Origin: an uncultured Desulfuromonas sp.
Lineage (GTDB): Bacteria > Desulfobacterota > Desulfuromonadia > Desulfuromonadales > Desulfuromonadaceae
Assembly: GCF_963678835.1 (NCBI RefSeq)
Contig: NZ_OY787470.1
Span: 372,001-436,000, forward strand
Length of the DNA stretch: 64,000 bases
Direction: 5' to 3'
In this document: piece after piece, positions 2,278 to 7,256 of the stretch
How positions within the stretch are numbered: position 1 is the stretch's first letter
Layout: each line of letters begins with the position of its first letter
Notes under the pieces: model-generated
The model's database searches: none
What the model was told of the DNA's origin: nothing
The model's input: only the letters and a program-made list of their open reading frames with translations
Program-made: the position numbers and the translations under genes

Positions 2278-2562
2278 TCAGAGCGATAACTGACAATGAC
2301 GACAGCGGCGTCCCCATGAGGTGCCGGCGCCGCGCATGTGAAACAGGTTGCCACACCGTGGGCAGCGGCTGAAACTGACACGCATCCCGCCGATCGCTGC
2401 CAGAATAATCCATATGATGCACACCACTGCCGGGGCGAAATTTCCTTCCGACGTAGATAATGTGATGCCGATCACCGGTAGATAGCTGATAAAAACCGCC
2501 CACAACTGCATGCGTTTGTGGCGAATCTGTTTGAGTTGTTCATCAAAGCGTTGTTCTTCCAT
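2278..2562 (-). CDS. Small membrane protein with C-terminal zinc ribbon
   Basis: 94 residues from the ATG at 2562, chosen because AGGAGG lies just upstream; a longer frame extends 24 codons further without support. A charged N-terminus is followed by two hydrophobic segments (about 22-38 and 44-62) and a C-terminal CPRCG...CRHC pair, which is a zinc-ribbon-like four-cysteine motif. It converges on the preceding operon. Function is unknown. Confidence 0.65.
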   Translation of the reverse strand: MEEQRFDEQLKQIRHKRMQLWAVFISYLPVIGITLSTSEGNFAPAVVCIIWIILAAIGGMRVSFSRCPRCGNLFHMRGAGTSWGRRCRHCQLSL

Positions 2563-2938
2563 AGTCCCTCCTGCGGCTCTGATTTTACCATATGTCCAGT
2601 ATACACGATGGATGGGTTTGTTTCTTCCTAACATGCTGTTTTTTAAAGATAATATCTGTGTATATTAAAGATATACATACGCGCAGTAAAAAAAATAGTC
2701 GATAAACCACAGAGTTAACAGGATGCTGTTTGCATTAATCCTCAATTGTCGTTGTTGAACTGCATAGTGTTTTTATACACTTGGCAGATTATGAGCCCTG
2801 GGCCAGATGGGATGGCAGTATGCTGTATACGTAATATCGCACTCTTGTGTCCTTTTTCTCCCTTTGGCATCTAACCTGCAGTTGATCAACGTCATGTGAT
2901 CTGATTGTTCAGGTCGTTGCATGATGCAGGAGGTGACG
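2563..2938. other. Intergenic region between divergent small genes
   Basis: 376 bases of AT-rich sequence between two divergently read small membrane-protein genes. It must hold promoters for both, but I see no convincing pair of -35/-10 boxes, no hairpin terminator and no repeat shared with the rest of the window. Confidence 0.5.
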
Positions 2939-3178
2939 ATGAGAGGTGTTTTGATGCTGGTATTGTTTGCAGTCTCTGCAACGCCGACTTATGCGGGCTC
3001 TATGGCTTCTGGGGGGGATGCTGGTCTGCTGGTCTGGTTTTTTATCGGTTTTTTGGCACTGTTTATTGTCTCCCAACTTATCCCCGGGATCGTTTTGACG
3101 ATTGGAGTCCTCCGGGGGCTGTTTTCCCGCAACGAGGCGAGGAAAGGAGCGGCACGGCCTAATGATCATGTGATGTGA
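2939..3178 (+). CDS. Small exported membrane protein, unknown function
   Basis: 79 residues from ATG 2939, which has a near-perfect AGGAGGTGACG ribosome site directly before it; an earlier in-frame ATG at 2921 would place that site inside the gene. An N-terminal signal peptide (about residues 1-20, ending TYA) is followed by a glycine-rich stretch, one strong membrane helix (about 32-56) and a basic tail. No family was recognised. The gene is isolated, with nrdD about 300 bases downstream. Confidence 0.6.
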   Translation: MRGVLMLVLFAVSATPTYAGSMASGGDAGLLVWFFIGFLALFIVSQLIPGIVLTIGVLRGLFSRNEARKGAARPNDHVM

Positions 3179-3345
3179 TGCAGGGTATAAAACCTTGAGG
3201 TCGCTCGCCCGGAATGACGCATTGGACAGGTGCCGGCATTCCGGGTTCTGCCTCGCCAAAAATCACCATTAATTTTTATCTGTTGTCGTGTGCCGGGGCT
3301 ATTTGTCCCGGTATTTTTTTGTGCAAATTTGCTGGTTTTCCCACT

Positions 3346-3354
3346 TTATCCACA
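3346..3354 (+). promoter_or_regulatory. DnaA box upstream of nrdD
   Basis: TTATCCACA matches the consensus DnaA box exactly and lies 142 bases before the chosen nrdD start. A 12-bp perfect palindrome (ACAACATGTTGT, 3376-3387) follows. DnaA binding at a ribonucleotide reductase promoter is established for E. coli nrdAB; relevance here is inferred. A single 9-mer can occur by chance. Confidence 0.4.
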
Positions 3355-3495
3355 GTGTTGCTCACAGGTTAATGAACAACATGTTGTAGGTCTATTTGGA
3401 ATTAATCTCTACATCTAGTGTTTTCTCTTGTCTCGTCAGATCGTGCTATGTTAATTTTTTCTTCGTTGAGTTTCACGTATTCAAAGGAGAGAGTG

Positions 3496-5484
3496 GTGCT
3501 GGAATACATTCGCAAGCGGGACGGGAGGCTGGTGGTTTTTGAGGAGGGAAAAATCTCTGAAGCCATCAAGAAGGCGGTTCGTGCAGTTGGTGGTCAGGAC
3601 ATGGCCAAAGCTGAAGAGATCACCCGCCAGGTGGTCGGGATTCTCGAGATTATCTACAAAGATGGCCGGGCGCCTACCGTGGAGAATGTGCAGGACTTGG
3701 TTGAAAAGCAGCTCATCGAAAGTGGCCATGCTCAGACGGCAAAAGCGTATATTCTTTATCGCCGTCAGCACGAACAGCTCAGAGCGACTAAATCGTTCAT
3801 GCAGGAATCCATTGACGCGATTGACTCCTACCTGACTCAGGAGGATTGGCGTGTCAAGGAAAATGCCAATATGGGCTACTCCCTGCAAGGGCTTAATAAC
3901 CACATTGCCTCCAATATTACCAGCAACTACTGGTTGAATAAAATTTATCCCGAGCGGATTTCCGCAGCCCACAAACAAGGCGATTTTCATATCCACGATC
4001 TCGGCATGTTGTCTGTGTACTGCTGTGGCTGGGATCTGAAAGACCTGCTGATGCAGGGCTTCACGGGTGCCTACGGTAAGGTCCAAAGTGGTCCGGCCAA
4101 GCATTTTCGCACTGCACTTGGCCAGGCGGTCAACTTTTTCTATACCTTGCAGGGTGAGGCGGCCGGTGCTCAGGCGTTTGCCAGTTTTGATACCTTGCTG
4201 GCACCGTTTATCCGCTACGACAATCTCAGTTATGAAGACGTGCGTCAATCGATCCAGGAGTTTATCTTCAACATGAACGTGCCGACGCGTGTCGGCTTCC
4301 AGACACCGTTCACCAACATCACGCTCGACTTGACGCCGCCACGTAATATGGCCCACGAAGGGGTGATCATTGGTGGCGCGTTGCAGCAGGAGACCTATGG
4401 CGAGTTTCAGCATGAGATGGATCTGTTCAACCGTGCCTTTTGCGAGGTGATGATGGAAGGGGATGCTTCAGGGCGTATTTTTACCTTCCCAATCCCCACC
4501 TATAACATTACCGCCGATCTTGATTGGGAGAGCGACCGTTTGCAGAGTGTCTGGGAGATGACCGCCAAATACGGGACCCCCTATTTCAGCAATTTCATCA
4601 ATTCCGACATGGATCCGGAGGATGCCCGTTCCATGTGCTGTCGTTTGCGCCTAGATAACCGCGAGCTGCGGCGCCGTGGCGGCGGTCTGTTTGGTTCCAA
4701 TCCGCTGACCGGTTCTACCGGTGTCGTAACACTTAATCTACCGCGTGCTGCCTATGTGGCGGATGATAAACAGAGCTTTTTCGAACGAATCTCCGATCTG
4801 ATGAAACTGGCCGCTGAGTCCTTGGATATCAAACGCAAGCAGTTGGAGCGCTTTACCGAAGAGGGGCTGTATCCCTACAGTCGCTATTACCTCAGTGCCA
4901 TCCGTGAGCGTAGCGGTCGTTATTGGGATAACCACTTTTCGACCATTGGTCTGATCGGCATGAACGAGGCGGCACAAAATCTCATCGGTTGTGGCATCGA
5001 TCAACCTGAGGGGGCGCAGTTCGCCGAAGAGACCCTCGAATTCATGCGCAAGCAGCTTGAGGCGTTCCAGCAAGAGACTGGCCAACTTTACAATCTTGAA
5101 GCCACACCGGCCGAGGGAACCAGCTTCCGGTTGGCGCAGCGTGATAAGACGCAGTTCCCAGATATTTTTACCGCAGGAACAGAGCAGCCCTATTACACCA
5201 ACTCGACTCAGCTGCCTGTTGGAACCACGGACGATATTTTCGAAGCTCTGCAACATCAGGATGGTCTGCAGACCCGTTACACCGGTGGTACGGTGTTTCA
5301 CGGTTTCCTCGGGGAACGGCTTGATGATTGGCGTAGCGCCCGGTTGTTGGTCAAGCGCATCGCCGAAAACTTTCATCTGCCGTATTTCACTCTCAGTCCG
5401 ACGTTTACAATCTGTCCGGTGCATGGCTACATCGCCGGTGAACATTTTTCATGCCCGCACGACCATAACGATCAGGCGGCGTAA
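3496..5484 (+). CDS. nrdD: Anaerobic (class III) ribonucleoside-triphosphate reductase, large part lacking the glycyl-radical tail
   Basis: 662 residues from GTG 3496, placed six bases after AGGAG; the open frame itself extends further upstream. The N-terminus is an ATP-cone allosteric domain (LEYIRKRDGR onward, about residues 1-90). The ten-stranded barrel follows, with YCCGWDL near residue 175 and MCCRL near 378, the latter the likely finger-loop thiyl-radical cysteine. The C-terminus carries the zinc-site region TFTICPVHGY...HFSCPHDH and then stops at TAA 5482-5484. Normal family members continue into the RVxGY/F glycyl-radical motif. Here that motif is in the next ORF, in the same reading frame 27 bases downstream. 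The enzyme makes deoxyribonucleotides without oxygen. nrdG follows. Confidence 0.9.
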   Translation: MLEYIRKRDGRLVVFEEGKISEAIKKAVRAVGGQDMAKAEEITRQVVGILEIIYKDGRAPTVENVQDLVEKQLIESGHAQTAKAYILYRRQHEQLRATKSFMQESIDAIDSYLTQEDWRVKENANMGYSLQGLNNHIASNITSNYWLNKIYPERISAAHKQGDFHIHDLGMLSVYCCGWDLKDLLMQGFTGAYGKVQSGPAKHFRTALGQAVNFFYTLQGEAAGAQAFASFDTLLAPFIRYDNLSYEDVRQSIQEFIFNMNVPTRVGFQTPFTNITLDLTPPRNMAHEGVIIGGALQQETYGEFQHEMDLFNRAFCEVMMEGDASGRIFTFPIPTYNITADLDWESDRLQSVWEMTAKYGTPYFSNFINSDMDPEDARSMCCRLRLDNRELRRRGGGLFGSNPLTGSTGVVTLNLPRAAYVADDKQSFFERISDLMKLAAESLDIKRKQLERFTEEGLYPYSRYYLSAIRERSGRYWDNHFSTIGLIGMNEAAQNLIGCGIDQPEGAQFAEETLEFMRKQLEAFQQETGQLYNLEATPAEGTSFRLAQRDKTQFPDIFTAGTEQPYYTNSTQLPVGTTDDIFEALQHQDGLQTRYTGGTVFHGFLGERLDDWRSARLLVKRIAENFHLPYFTLSPTFTICPVHGYIAGEHFSCPHDHNDQAA

Positions 5485-5511
5485 TCCGACTCACGTCAAC
5501 AAGGAGGTTTC

Positions 5512-5652
5512 ATGTCCAGCAAATGTCAGCAGAAAACGGAAGTGTACTCTCGTGTCTGTGGTTTCTTTCGTCCTGTCCAGCAGTGGAACAAGGGCAAGCA
5601 GGAAGAGTTTAACCAGCGTCGTGAATACGCGGTGCAAAGCAGCGAGAAGTAA
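5512..5652 (+). CDS. nrdD: Separate glycyl-radical peptide of anaerobic ribonucleotide reductase
   Basis: 46 residues, starting at ATG 5512 behind a strong AAGGAGG site. It contains TEVYSRVCGFFRP and WNKGKQEEF, which is the C-terminal glycyl-radical segment of NrdD; Gly17 in RVCGF is the expected radical site. It is in the same frame as the large ORF and separated from it by a single TAA plus nine sense codons, so it could be an old nonsense split, a stop-readthrough extension or a free peptide that docks onto the barrel. The dedicated ribosome site and intact motif favour a functional free peptide, comparable in concept to YfiD repairing pyruvate formate-lyase. Similar split forms may exist in relatives. 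Confidence 0.85.
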   Translation: MSSKCQQKTEVYSRVCGFFRPVQQWNKGKQEEFNQRREYAVQSSEK

Positions 5653-5657
5653 TTTTC

Positions 5658-6353
5658 GTGGGTATTAAAGGTTTCCAGGGCACCAGTGTTCTAGATTTTC
5701 CAGGTCGGATTGCCTCGCTGGTGTTTTACGGCGGGTGCAATTTGAGCTGCGGTTTTTGTCACAACTCCACCCTGATCGATGACTTTGATCAATATCCTGA
5801 TATGCCAGTGGAAGCGTTGCTCGACGCATTGCAGCAACGTGTTGGCTTTATCGATGGTGTGGTCATCTCTGGTGGCGAGCCGACCCTGGCTCCAACTCTG
5901 GCGTCAACCTTGATGCAGATTAAACGATTGGGTCTGGCGGTTAAACTCGATACCAACGGTCTGCGACCCGACGTGATGGCACAGCTGATGGATCAGCAGT
6001 TGCTCGATTATGTGGCCCTCGACGTTAAAACCTCGCCGGAGCGCTATGGTGAGCTGCATCACCGGCCGGTCGCGTTGGGTGAATTGAAAAAAAGTGTCGA
6101 TCTGTTGTTGGGTGGCGAAGTTGGTTATGAGTTTCGCACCACCTGTGTTCCGGGGTTGGTCGAAGAAAAAGATATTCGGAATATGGCCAAGCTGCTTGAC
6201 GGCGGACAGCGCTGGATTTTACAACAATATGTTGCCGAGCATGCCATGGATGAAACCATGCAGCAATGTGGGGCGTTTTCTCCTCAGGTGTTGCATGGCT
6301 ATGCTGACGTGGCCCGGAGGCATGTTCAACAGGTGGAGCTGCGCGGGTTGTAA
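5658..6353 (+). CDS. nrdG: Anaerobic ribonucleotide reductase activating protein, radical SAM enzyme
   Basis: 231 residues, GTG start five bases after the glycyl-radical peptide. CNLSCGFC (Cys27, Cys31, Cys34) is the CX3CX2C motif that binds the [4Fe-4S] cluster and S-adenosylmethionine; VISGGEP is the GGEP motif. The N-terminus GFQGTSVLDFPG and length fit the NrdG2-type activases. It installs the glycyl radical on NrdD by hydrogen abstraction. Its place directly after the two nrdD parts supports one operon, which ends at a strong terminator about 120 bases later. Confidence 0.9.
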   Translation: MGIKGFQGTSVLDFPGRIASLVFYGGCNLSCGFCHNSTLIDDFDQYPDMPVEALLDALQQRVGFIDGVVISGGEPTLAPTLASTLMQIKRLGLAVKLDTNGLRPDVMAQLMDQQLLDYVALDVKTSPERYGELHHRPVALGELKKSVDLLLGGEVGYEFRTTCVPGLVEEKDIRNMAKLLDGGQRWILQQYVAEHAMDETMQQCGAFSPQVLHGYADVARRHVQQVELRGL

Positions 6354-6473
6354 CTCTGTCTGTACTTTTATTCGCAATTTGGGTTCAATATCCCGCAGTT
6401 CACTGCGTGATTGAGCAAAGATTGCAGGCTGTTGATACCCCGCTGCTTGCGGCGGGGTAGTTCATTGATGAGG

Positions 6474-6511
6474 AAAAGAGGTGTTGCCGATGGGCAACAC
6501 CTCTTTTTTTT
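6474..6511 (+). terminator. Rho-independent terminator after nrdG
   Basis: A 12-bp perfect stem (AGAGGTGTTGCC / GGCAACACCTCT) with a three-to-four-base loop is followed by a run of eight T. A second, smaller GC-rich hairpin (CCCCGC/GCGGGG) lies just upstream at about 6438-6457. Confidence 0.9.
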
Positions 6512-6525
6512 GCTTGAGGCATTGA

Positions 6526-6682
6526 GCAGGATGTTGAAAAAGCCCCACCCAGGGCCTTTTCAATGACGCAAACCGAAAATGCGATTTCTGTCTCGCTTGC
6601 AAAATCAAGGACTTGGAAACCTGTCCTTGATTTTGGTCGCCCGTCCATGGGCTCCACAGGCTGTTTTTCAACCGCCTGTTAG
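6526..6682 (+). repeat. Palindromic dispersed repeat, copy A
   Basis: Fullest copy of a family found seven times in the window (6526, 16409, 18296, 36022, 37636, 38803, 57881). It begins AGCAGGATGTTGAAAAA and ends TTTTTCAACCGCCTGTTAG, so its ends are inverted. An inner stem pairs AAATCAAGGAC with GTCCTTGATTT. It has no ORF and lies between genes, as a MITE or REP-like element would. Confidence 0.75.
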
Positions 6683-7256
6683 GGGGGAAGACGTCGCTTG
6701 CTGTCCTTTTTATATGCTAAAGGCTGTCATGGAGAAATAACCTTTGTCGGGCAAGGGCTGGGACCTGTTGTATTATTTGTTATGGTTAACCTTCTAATCT
6801 GCTGAAAAATGTGCATATTAATAAGTTTTGTAAGCTTACTGTTAGAATATTTGACTTTTTAAGGTATCTGGTCAAGTTTTATGACAAGTTGTTTTTATTT
6901 TTTGACACAGTCAACTGATTGAACTGACAGGAGTCTGCCGTTTTTGTTGCGACGTCTCCCTGTTTACCTGCACTTGGCTGGATTGATATCTTATGTGAAT
7001 ATTGTAATAAATTAAATTTTTGCTTTTCGTCAGAAATATTGCCTTGTTTTAATTTTGTGTTGTCTTTTGCGGTTTCTCAGGTTGCTCGAACCACAATGGA
7101 TCGACATAACGACAAATAGAAAATGAGGAAACGATTGAACGACATCTTTTGTGATGTGGAAAATGAACAGTCGTTTTGTTGTCGGCAGTAAAGCTTTTTA
7201 GGGCAACTGTGTGGCCAGAGAAGACCATTGGCTTGGAAAAAGAAAGGAGAGCGTTA
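6683..7256. other. AT-rich intergenic region before cheW
   Basis: About 570 bases without a supported gene. It is noticeably richer in A and T than its surroundings. A TTGACA lies near 6903 but no matching -10 is at the right distance, and no sigma-54 or sigma-28 promoter pattern was found. The cheW frame extends into it but without a ribosome site. Confidence 0.5.

Follow-up and report, generated by a model that had tools for sequence, protein, structure and literature searches.

Separate genes for the catalytic body and the glycyl-radical end of a class III ribonucleotide reductase in the Desulfuromonadales

The 64,000-nucleotide stretch of DNA from an uncultured Desulfuromonas sp. analysed here (hereafter, the window) carries nrdD as two adjoining genes, a long one for the catalytic body and a very short one for the glycyl-radical end. 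Textbook class III reductases hold the radical glycine and the active site on one chain. From sequence comparison we consider it highly probable (about 0.87) that the window encodes a conserved two-chain class III reductase, whose catalytic and glycyl-radical chains are separate gene products that would join as proposed below. The layout of the two genes, its conservation among relatives and the motifs retained by each gene are directly established by the comparisons that follow.

Two adjoining genes in the window

The large-chain gene (positions 3496 to 5484, forward strand) starts with GTG, encodes 662 aa and ends at the TAA at 5482-5484 without a glycyl motif, as a sequence-only reading of the window had noticed. 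Its product matches NF006126 with 1036.7 bits (cut-off 548) and Pfam NRDD (PF13597) over profile positions 1-528 of 562 (E 4.7e-181). Profile matches place an ATP-cone at residues 4-93 and the NRDD barrel at residues 122-657, ending directly past the third candidate zinc ligand. The glycyl motif lies on the next open reading frame, in the same frame and 27 nt further on, which encodes a 46-aa peptide (5512 to 5652, forward strand, ATG at 5512) and has its own ribosome-binding site, AAGGAGG at 5501-5507; similar Shine-Dalgarno-like (SD-like) sites precede the start in related loci. This peptide matches PF13597 at positions 526-562 of 562 (E 8.8e-11), so that the two products cover adjoining stretches of the profile and together amount to one complete NrdD. 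The nrdG gene (5658 to 6353, forward strand, GTG start) begins 5 nt past the end of the peptide frame. These features of the sequence-only reading all stand.

The NRDD catalytic domain expected of a class III NrdD is thus present, shared between the large chain and the peptide, and so is a dedicated radical-SAM activase, the nrdG product being of the NrdG2 type (TIGR02495, 186 bits; cut-off 131.15). The radical glycine, which a one-chain enzyme carries at its own C-terminus, is found here on the separate peptide only, which makes this a class III enzyme system and not a standard one-chain NrdD. The predicted radical glycine is Gly17 of the peptide (codon 5560-5562, in RVCGFFRP), whose loop aligns with the radical-glycine loop of Thermotoga maritima NrdD. 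In the large chain, an SMCCRL motif in the region of residues 379-405 aligns with the SCCR region of the T. maritima enzyme, and the stretch aligned to the T. maritima finger loop holds no Cys; the radical cysteine has been reported missing from that finger loop in T. maritima itself.

We found no inverted repeat in positions 3400-6450 of the window and no Rfam match in positions 2500-7200, nor does the stretch separating the large and the peptide frames contain a terminator- or promoter-like site. An intron or intein was rejected as the source of the interruption on the basis of that Rfam result and of the gap of just 27 nt. The pair lies on a replicon-sized second contig of about 820 kb (G000:C2), whereas in G002 and G007 it is found on the single contig of 3.8-3.9 Mb. 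A single intact gene for a class I/II-type reductase is present in the genome of the window as well, and the two-chain class III enzyme therefore need not be essential.

Conservation of the split and a zinc site shared by two chains

Searches of 147 relatives returned a match to the peptide in 118 and a match to the large chain in 118, in slightly different sets of genomes; many of the relatives lacking either match (29 for the peptide) are incomplete genomes or belong to other families. Peptide matches within frames longer than 600 aa were confined to G051:C2 (739) and G058:C36 (837), which belong to other NrdD subfamilies and are 59% and 54% identical to the window large chain, respectively, and no match of the window's own kind (type A) lay in an uninterrupted long frame in any of the 147. 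The sequence-only reading had named uninterrupted nrdD genes in close relatives as the outcome that would reduce the split to a local mutation or error; the opposite was found, with a split conserved across this order of anaerobic bacteria. Its recurrence across the order is more than chance would produce. Furthermore, a scan of contigs from 84,980 species picked up 297 sequences related to the peptide. The best 80 of these, which are peptide matches and not a count of splits, mostly carry names typical of the Desulfuromonadales, for example Desulfuromusa kysingii, Pelovirga terrestris and Geothermobacter hydrogeniphilus.

A single stop separates two in-frame pieces in the window, as a local nonsense mutation, a pseudogene or a sequencing error would have it. 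The identical split recurs order-wide in many independent assemblies, however, and both parts are under purifying selection, which leaves this explanation next to no probability, and we reject it. Differences between peptide genes fall mostly at third codon positions: the window gene differs from that of locus L033 by 0, 1 and 12 changes at codon positions 1, 2 and 3, and from that of L120 by 9, 7 and 26.

The stop might instead be read through, or bypassed by frameshifting, to give one ordinary NrdD chain, an option that the sequence-only reading had left standing. The in-frame position of the window peptide, 27 nt past the TAA, is consistent with it, and in two genomes (G000 and G043) the phylum search joined the pieces over one stop. 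We compared 93 distinct type-A pairs, defined by a large-chain identity of at least 70% and excluding duplicates and the lower-identity loci L075 and L078. The large frame ends in TGA in 53, TAG in 21 and TAA in 19; the peptide lies in relative frame 0 in 35, 1 in 17 and 2 in 41, an unequal use of the three frames (chi-square p 0.0065) that nevertheless puts 58 of the 93 out of frame; and the gap ranges from 14 to 290 nt (median 47). Since all three stops, all three frames and such varied gaps occur, and since the peptide genes have their own start codon preceded by an SD-like sequence, read-through or frameshifting is ruled out as the shared mechanism, and a single ordinary chain is a very improbable product of these loci, although some read-through product may arise in the window, where the peptide is in frame. 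The sequence EVYSRVCGFFRPVQQWN is present in 91 of the 93 peptides.

The zinc site was compared as well (background in excerpts of PMC4493059). Among the phylum-search matches listed, all 30 intact relatives have CxxC as the second zinc pair, and in all 30 the last Cys of this motif precedes the E of EVY or EIY by five residues. The large chain of the window offers three candidate ligands, namely Cys640 and His643 in CPVH (codons at 5413-5424), which belong to a conserved CPxHGY motif, and Cys653 in CPH (codon 5452-5454). The candidate fourth, Cys5 of the peptide (codon 5524-5526), would be provided in trans at the canonical spacing. A Cys at this same distance of five residues ahead of the EVY glutamate occurs in 93/93 type-A peptides and is kept in 24/24 aligned peptides, phage-borne ones included, while CPxHGY followed by CP is found in the 29 type-A large chains checked, without exception. 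None of the 93 large chains has a Cys at the canonical place of the fourth ligand; 43 of them have a His there, which could act as the fourth ligand in some pairs.

Because the peptide Cys matches the fourth zinc Cys of intact relatives, the site is probably completed across the two chains, by C, H and C from the large chain and C from the peptide. The sequence-only reading had suggested that zinc might help to join the chains, and the spacing shared by the peptides and the intact relatives favours that proposal. It had also described the second ligand pair as altered, with CPHDH in place of CPxC: the second Cys of the pair is indeed absent from the large chain and the next Cys is in the peptide, but CPHDH should not be read as an aberrant form of CPxC, as the large chain retains the first C of the pair and the absent one corresponds to peptide Cys5, which has the canonical spacing to EVY. 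Two intact proteins of another subfamily (type B, see below), those of L079 and of Acidithiobacillus ferrooxidans (L331), lack this Cys spacing.

In the proposed enzyme, the 662-aa chain would contribute the ATP-cone, the barrel and three zinc ligands, and the 46-aa peptide the fourth ligand and the radical glycine. The peptide would dock where the C-terminal domain of an ordinary NrdD sits, a domain that in P. copri NrdD consists of the zinc site and the radical loop and is mobile. Zinc would pin the peptide to the large chain, NrdG would form the radical on Gly17, and catalysis would then run as in a one-chain NrdD.

Splits in other subfamilies and on plasmids

At least 245 of 395 genomes of the phylum contain an NRDD match, and separate peptides occur in several NrdD subfamilies. 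Type B NrdD, about 51% identical to the window large chain, is split at loci L073-L077, L080, L081 and L318, where the gap up to the peptide match runs from 13 to 846 nt (seven loci), and intact at L079, where a linker of about 40 residues joins the zinc knuckle to the glycyl loop. One of the split loci (L073:1914-4946, on contig C1) is a second class III NrdD in the genome of the window. In four Desulfuromonas loci the type B peptide follows only after 0.6-0.85 kb of partly conserved non-coding DNA, as against a gap of 13 nt at L075. Groups f36 (L308-L310) and f51/f86 (L312-L317, L319, L345) are split at 3/3 and 8/8 loci, respectively. Group f63, from a remote NrdD subfamily with the motif RITGYLVGTLDRFNNAKR in its peptide, has a separate peptide at 10 of 11 loci; at the remaining one (L307) no peptide was found within the 6 kb stretch.

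The position of the junction differs among these groups. It falls between zinc ligands 3 and 4 in type A, past ligand 4 in type B and f36, past a CPYPH tail in f51/f86 and past a CPRCG tail in f63; f51/f86 and type B bodies thus end differently, and the zinc logic of type A is not common to all splits. A quick tree of 84 bodies (49 split, 35 intact) has five changes of state, four of them forced by strongly supported branches. This tree was midpoint-rooted and does not distinguish gains from losses, and its split labels came from a regular expression, except that L079 was set as intact by eye; L311 (whose body runs off its contig), L319 and L323 (which has a premature stop) were left out, L311 and L323 being unscored, and long-branch warnings attach to L163, L078 and the grouping of L073 with L320. 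A single origin of all splits was rejected, at least four state changes being needed. Together with the order-wide conservation of type A, these non-homologous splits support the two-part enzyme that the sequence-only reading had proposed from one locus; it had not foreseen the breadth of the split across bacteria, nor the lone phage-borne peptides described below.

Outside the phylum, six of eight plasmid records hold a split pair (Bradyrhizobium, Azospira, Sulfuricystis, Cupriavidus necator H16, Sulfuricurvum and Paracoccus), one has an intact nrdD (A. ferrooxidans) and one, from Allochromatium, has a peptide gene on its own, no body being encoded within 3.5 kb of it. Like the window, the Cupriavidus, Bradyrhizobium, Azospira, Sulfuricystis and Sulfuricurvum pairs combine a body without a glycyl end, a separate peptide (57-66 aa) and nrdG. 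These pairs differ from it in being type B, in that the body keeps CxxC as its second zinc pair and the split falls past all four ligands. The C. necator H16 enzyme was treated by Siedow et al. in 1999 (cited in PMC2864759), a paper that may mention the small gene. Body, short nrdD and nrdG are annotated in a row in five of the plasmid records, including pHG1 of C. necator H16, and RefSeq already names the short frame nrdD; none of the four peptides tried reached the cut-off of any NCBIfam model.

Several of these records have features of their own. The split type B pair of the Paracoccus denitrificans plasmid (L333) was read from unannotated sequence, a case of how easily short peptides of this sort are missed. 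On the Azospira sp. I09 plasmid (L329:1-4792) the split class III genes lie between genes for the alpha and beta chains of a class I reductase. The lone gene of Allochromatium vinosum plasmid pALVIN01 (L334:3492-3701) encodes a 69-aa glycyl-radical peptide.

According to an excerpt of PMC2864759, C. necator H16 cannot denitrify completely unless it has NrdDG, and the NrdDG genes of C. metallidurans are Rmet_5137 and Rmet_5139. The skipped locus number fits a small gene between the two. The denitrification statement is the best hint of a working split enzyme, and it concerns type B, unlike the type A of the window.

Lone and phage-borne peptides

Eleven extra peptides were found away from nrdD in the relatives, all in genomes that also have a type-A body, and tblastn placed a relative of GemA, Mu Gam or MuB at 8 of the 11 loci. 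One of these eight is in the genome of the window itself, which encodes a second 46-aa glycyl-radical peptide in a Mu-like prophage (L062:3992-4129, reverse strand; C1:3293159-3293284). Its neighbours include GemA, above the Pfam cut-off, a MuB-like or DNA transposition protein, and Mu Gam, which was found by PHROGs and is slightly below the Pfam cut-off.

A scan of IMG/VR yielded 54 peptide loci. At 27 of them the fetched stretch contains at least one of five marker open reading frames, comprising GemA, Gam or MuB at 21 loci and only prophage frames of unknown function at the other 6. In an NRDD search of 46 of the 54 virus records, 44 matched solely at profile positions 498-562, without an NrdD body, although the records may be fragments, two of these matches are below the cut-off and the L143 peptide is shortened by a stop. 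The remaining two records were G542, with a split body, peptide and nrdG, and G543, with an intact nrdD. The G542 body (L161) is interrupted by stops, TGA and TAA. The C-x4-E spacing is present at 41 of the 54 loci, with C-E at 3, another arrangement at 4 and none found by the pattern at 6. ANMV-1, a virus of uncultured archaea, encodes a 144-aa protein (L326:2686-3120) that has a zinc-like and a glycyl part only and is annotated as an anaerobic ribonucleoside triphosphate reductase.

Such lone copies could point to a peptide that, like YfiD, acts chiefly in repair or regulation, has no permanent tie to this body and might serve other reductases of the cell. Spare parts for pyruvate formate-lyase (PFL) exist in both T4 and E. 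coli (excerpt of PMC8683613), and the second split NrdD in the genome of the window comes with a peptide of its own. The window body, however, has no glycyl end and cannot work without a peptide, and its gene adjoins those of the peptide and nrdG, and a mainly auxiliary role is very improbable; a fixed subunit may at the same time be exchangeable. A lone phage peptide bearing the fourth zinc ligand also fits a body that lacks this ligand better than it fits a cleaved one-chain enzyme, since the latter keeps all four. Membership of the peptide in the YfiD/GrcA family was rejected: at E<=10 it matched PF13597 and, weakly, Cys_rich_VLP, and the profile search gave no match to a PFL-type glycyl family at that threshold.

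What the split may bring is more speculative. Oxygen cleaves class III enzymes at the glycyl radical (excerpt of PMC3019208). Were this to happen in a split enzyme, only the peptide would be lost, and replacement would be cheap; one might speculate that the gain lies here, damage at the glycine costing a replaceable 46-aa chain and not a 700-aa enzyme. It is equally speculative that phage-borne copies of the peptide act as spare parts for the radical site of host reductases. That the glycyl radical is, across a large range of bacteria, an exchangeable protein cofactor, held through the shared zinc and replaced after oxygen damage, with copies on transposable and other phages powering or re-powering the host reductase during infection, is a tentative reading that we rate somewhat below an even chance.

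Comparison with known systems

We found no description of a split NrdD with a separate glycyl peptide in the literature searched, in which subscription papers mostly fell outside coverage. One survey retained only sequences of 400-1100 residues (excerpt of PMC9531940), a limit under which bodies would be seen without their radical end. With the one-chain NrdD enzymes of T4, T. maritima, P. copri and S. thermophilus (PF13597) the window system has in common the ATP-cone, the NRDD barrel, an adjoining NrdG and the order of the putative zinc-knuckle and glycyl-loop sequences. Unlike in these enzymes, knuckle and loop are distributed over two proteins, with the break between candidate ligands 3 and 4. 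A natural two-chain version means that the radical part alone can be labelled, mutated or swapped, which opens direct tests of glycyl-domain docking, of NrdG access and of the mending of oxygen-killed enzyme.

Other reductases are also known in pieces. NrdJa and NrdJb of Pseudomonas aeruginosa spread a reductase over two genes, as in the window, but form a class II, vitamin B12 enzyme with no glycyl radical (excerpt of PMC9669993). Phage nrdD genes with introns, inteins or homing endonucleases are likewise interrupted (excerpt of PMC3653736); these are single insertion events, whereas the window has no intron match and its split shows order-wide vertical conservation.

Close parallels are YfiD/GrcA and T4 Y06I, which like the peptide are small, free glycyl-radical proteins that complete a body and are also phage-borne (excerpt of PMC8683613). 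They measure about 14 kDa and mend a damaged, originally whole PFL enzyme; in the window, by contrast, the body lacks the glycyl end from the outset, the proteins belong to NrdD (PF13597) and not to PFL, and the small part has 46 aa. On the exchangeable-cofactor reading, the peptide would be the ribonucleotide-reductase counterpart of Y06I. According to the same excerpt, validated spare parts are limited to the two that serve PFL, and others may exist for other glycyl-radical enzymes; the NrdD peptide, with its phage-borne copies, is a concrete candidate for a further glycyl-radical spare part.
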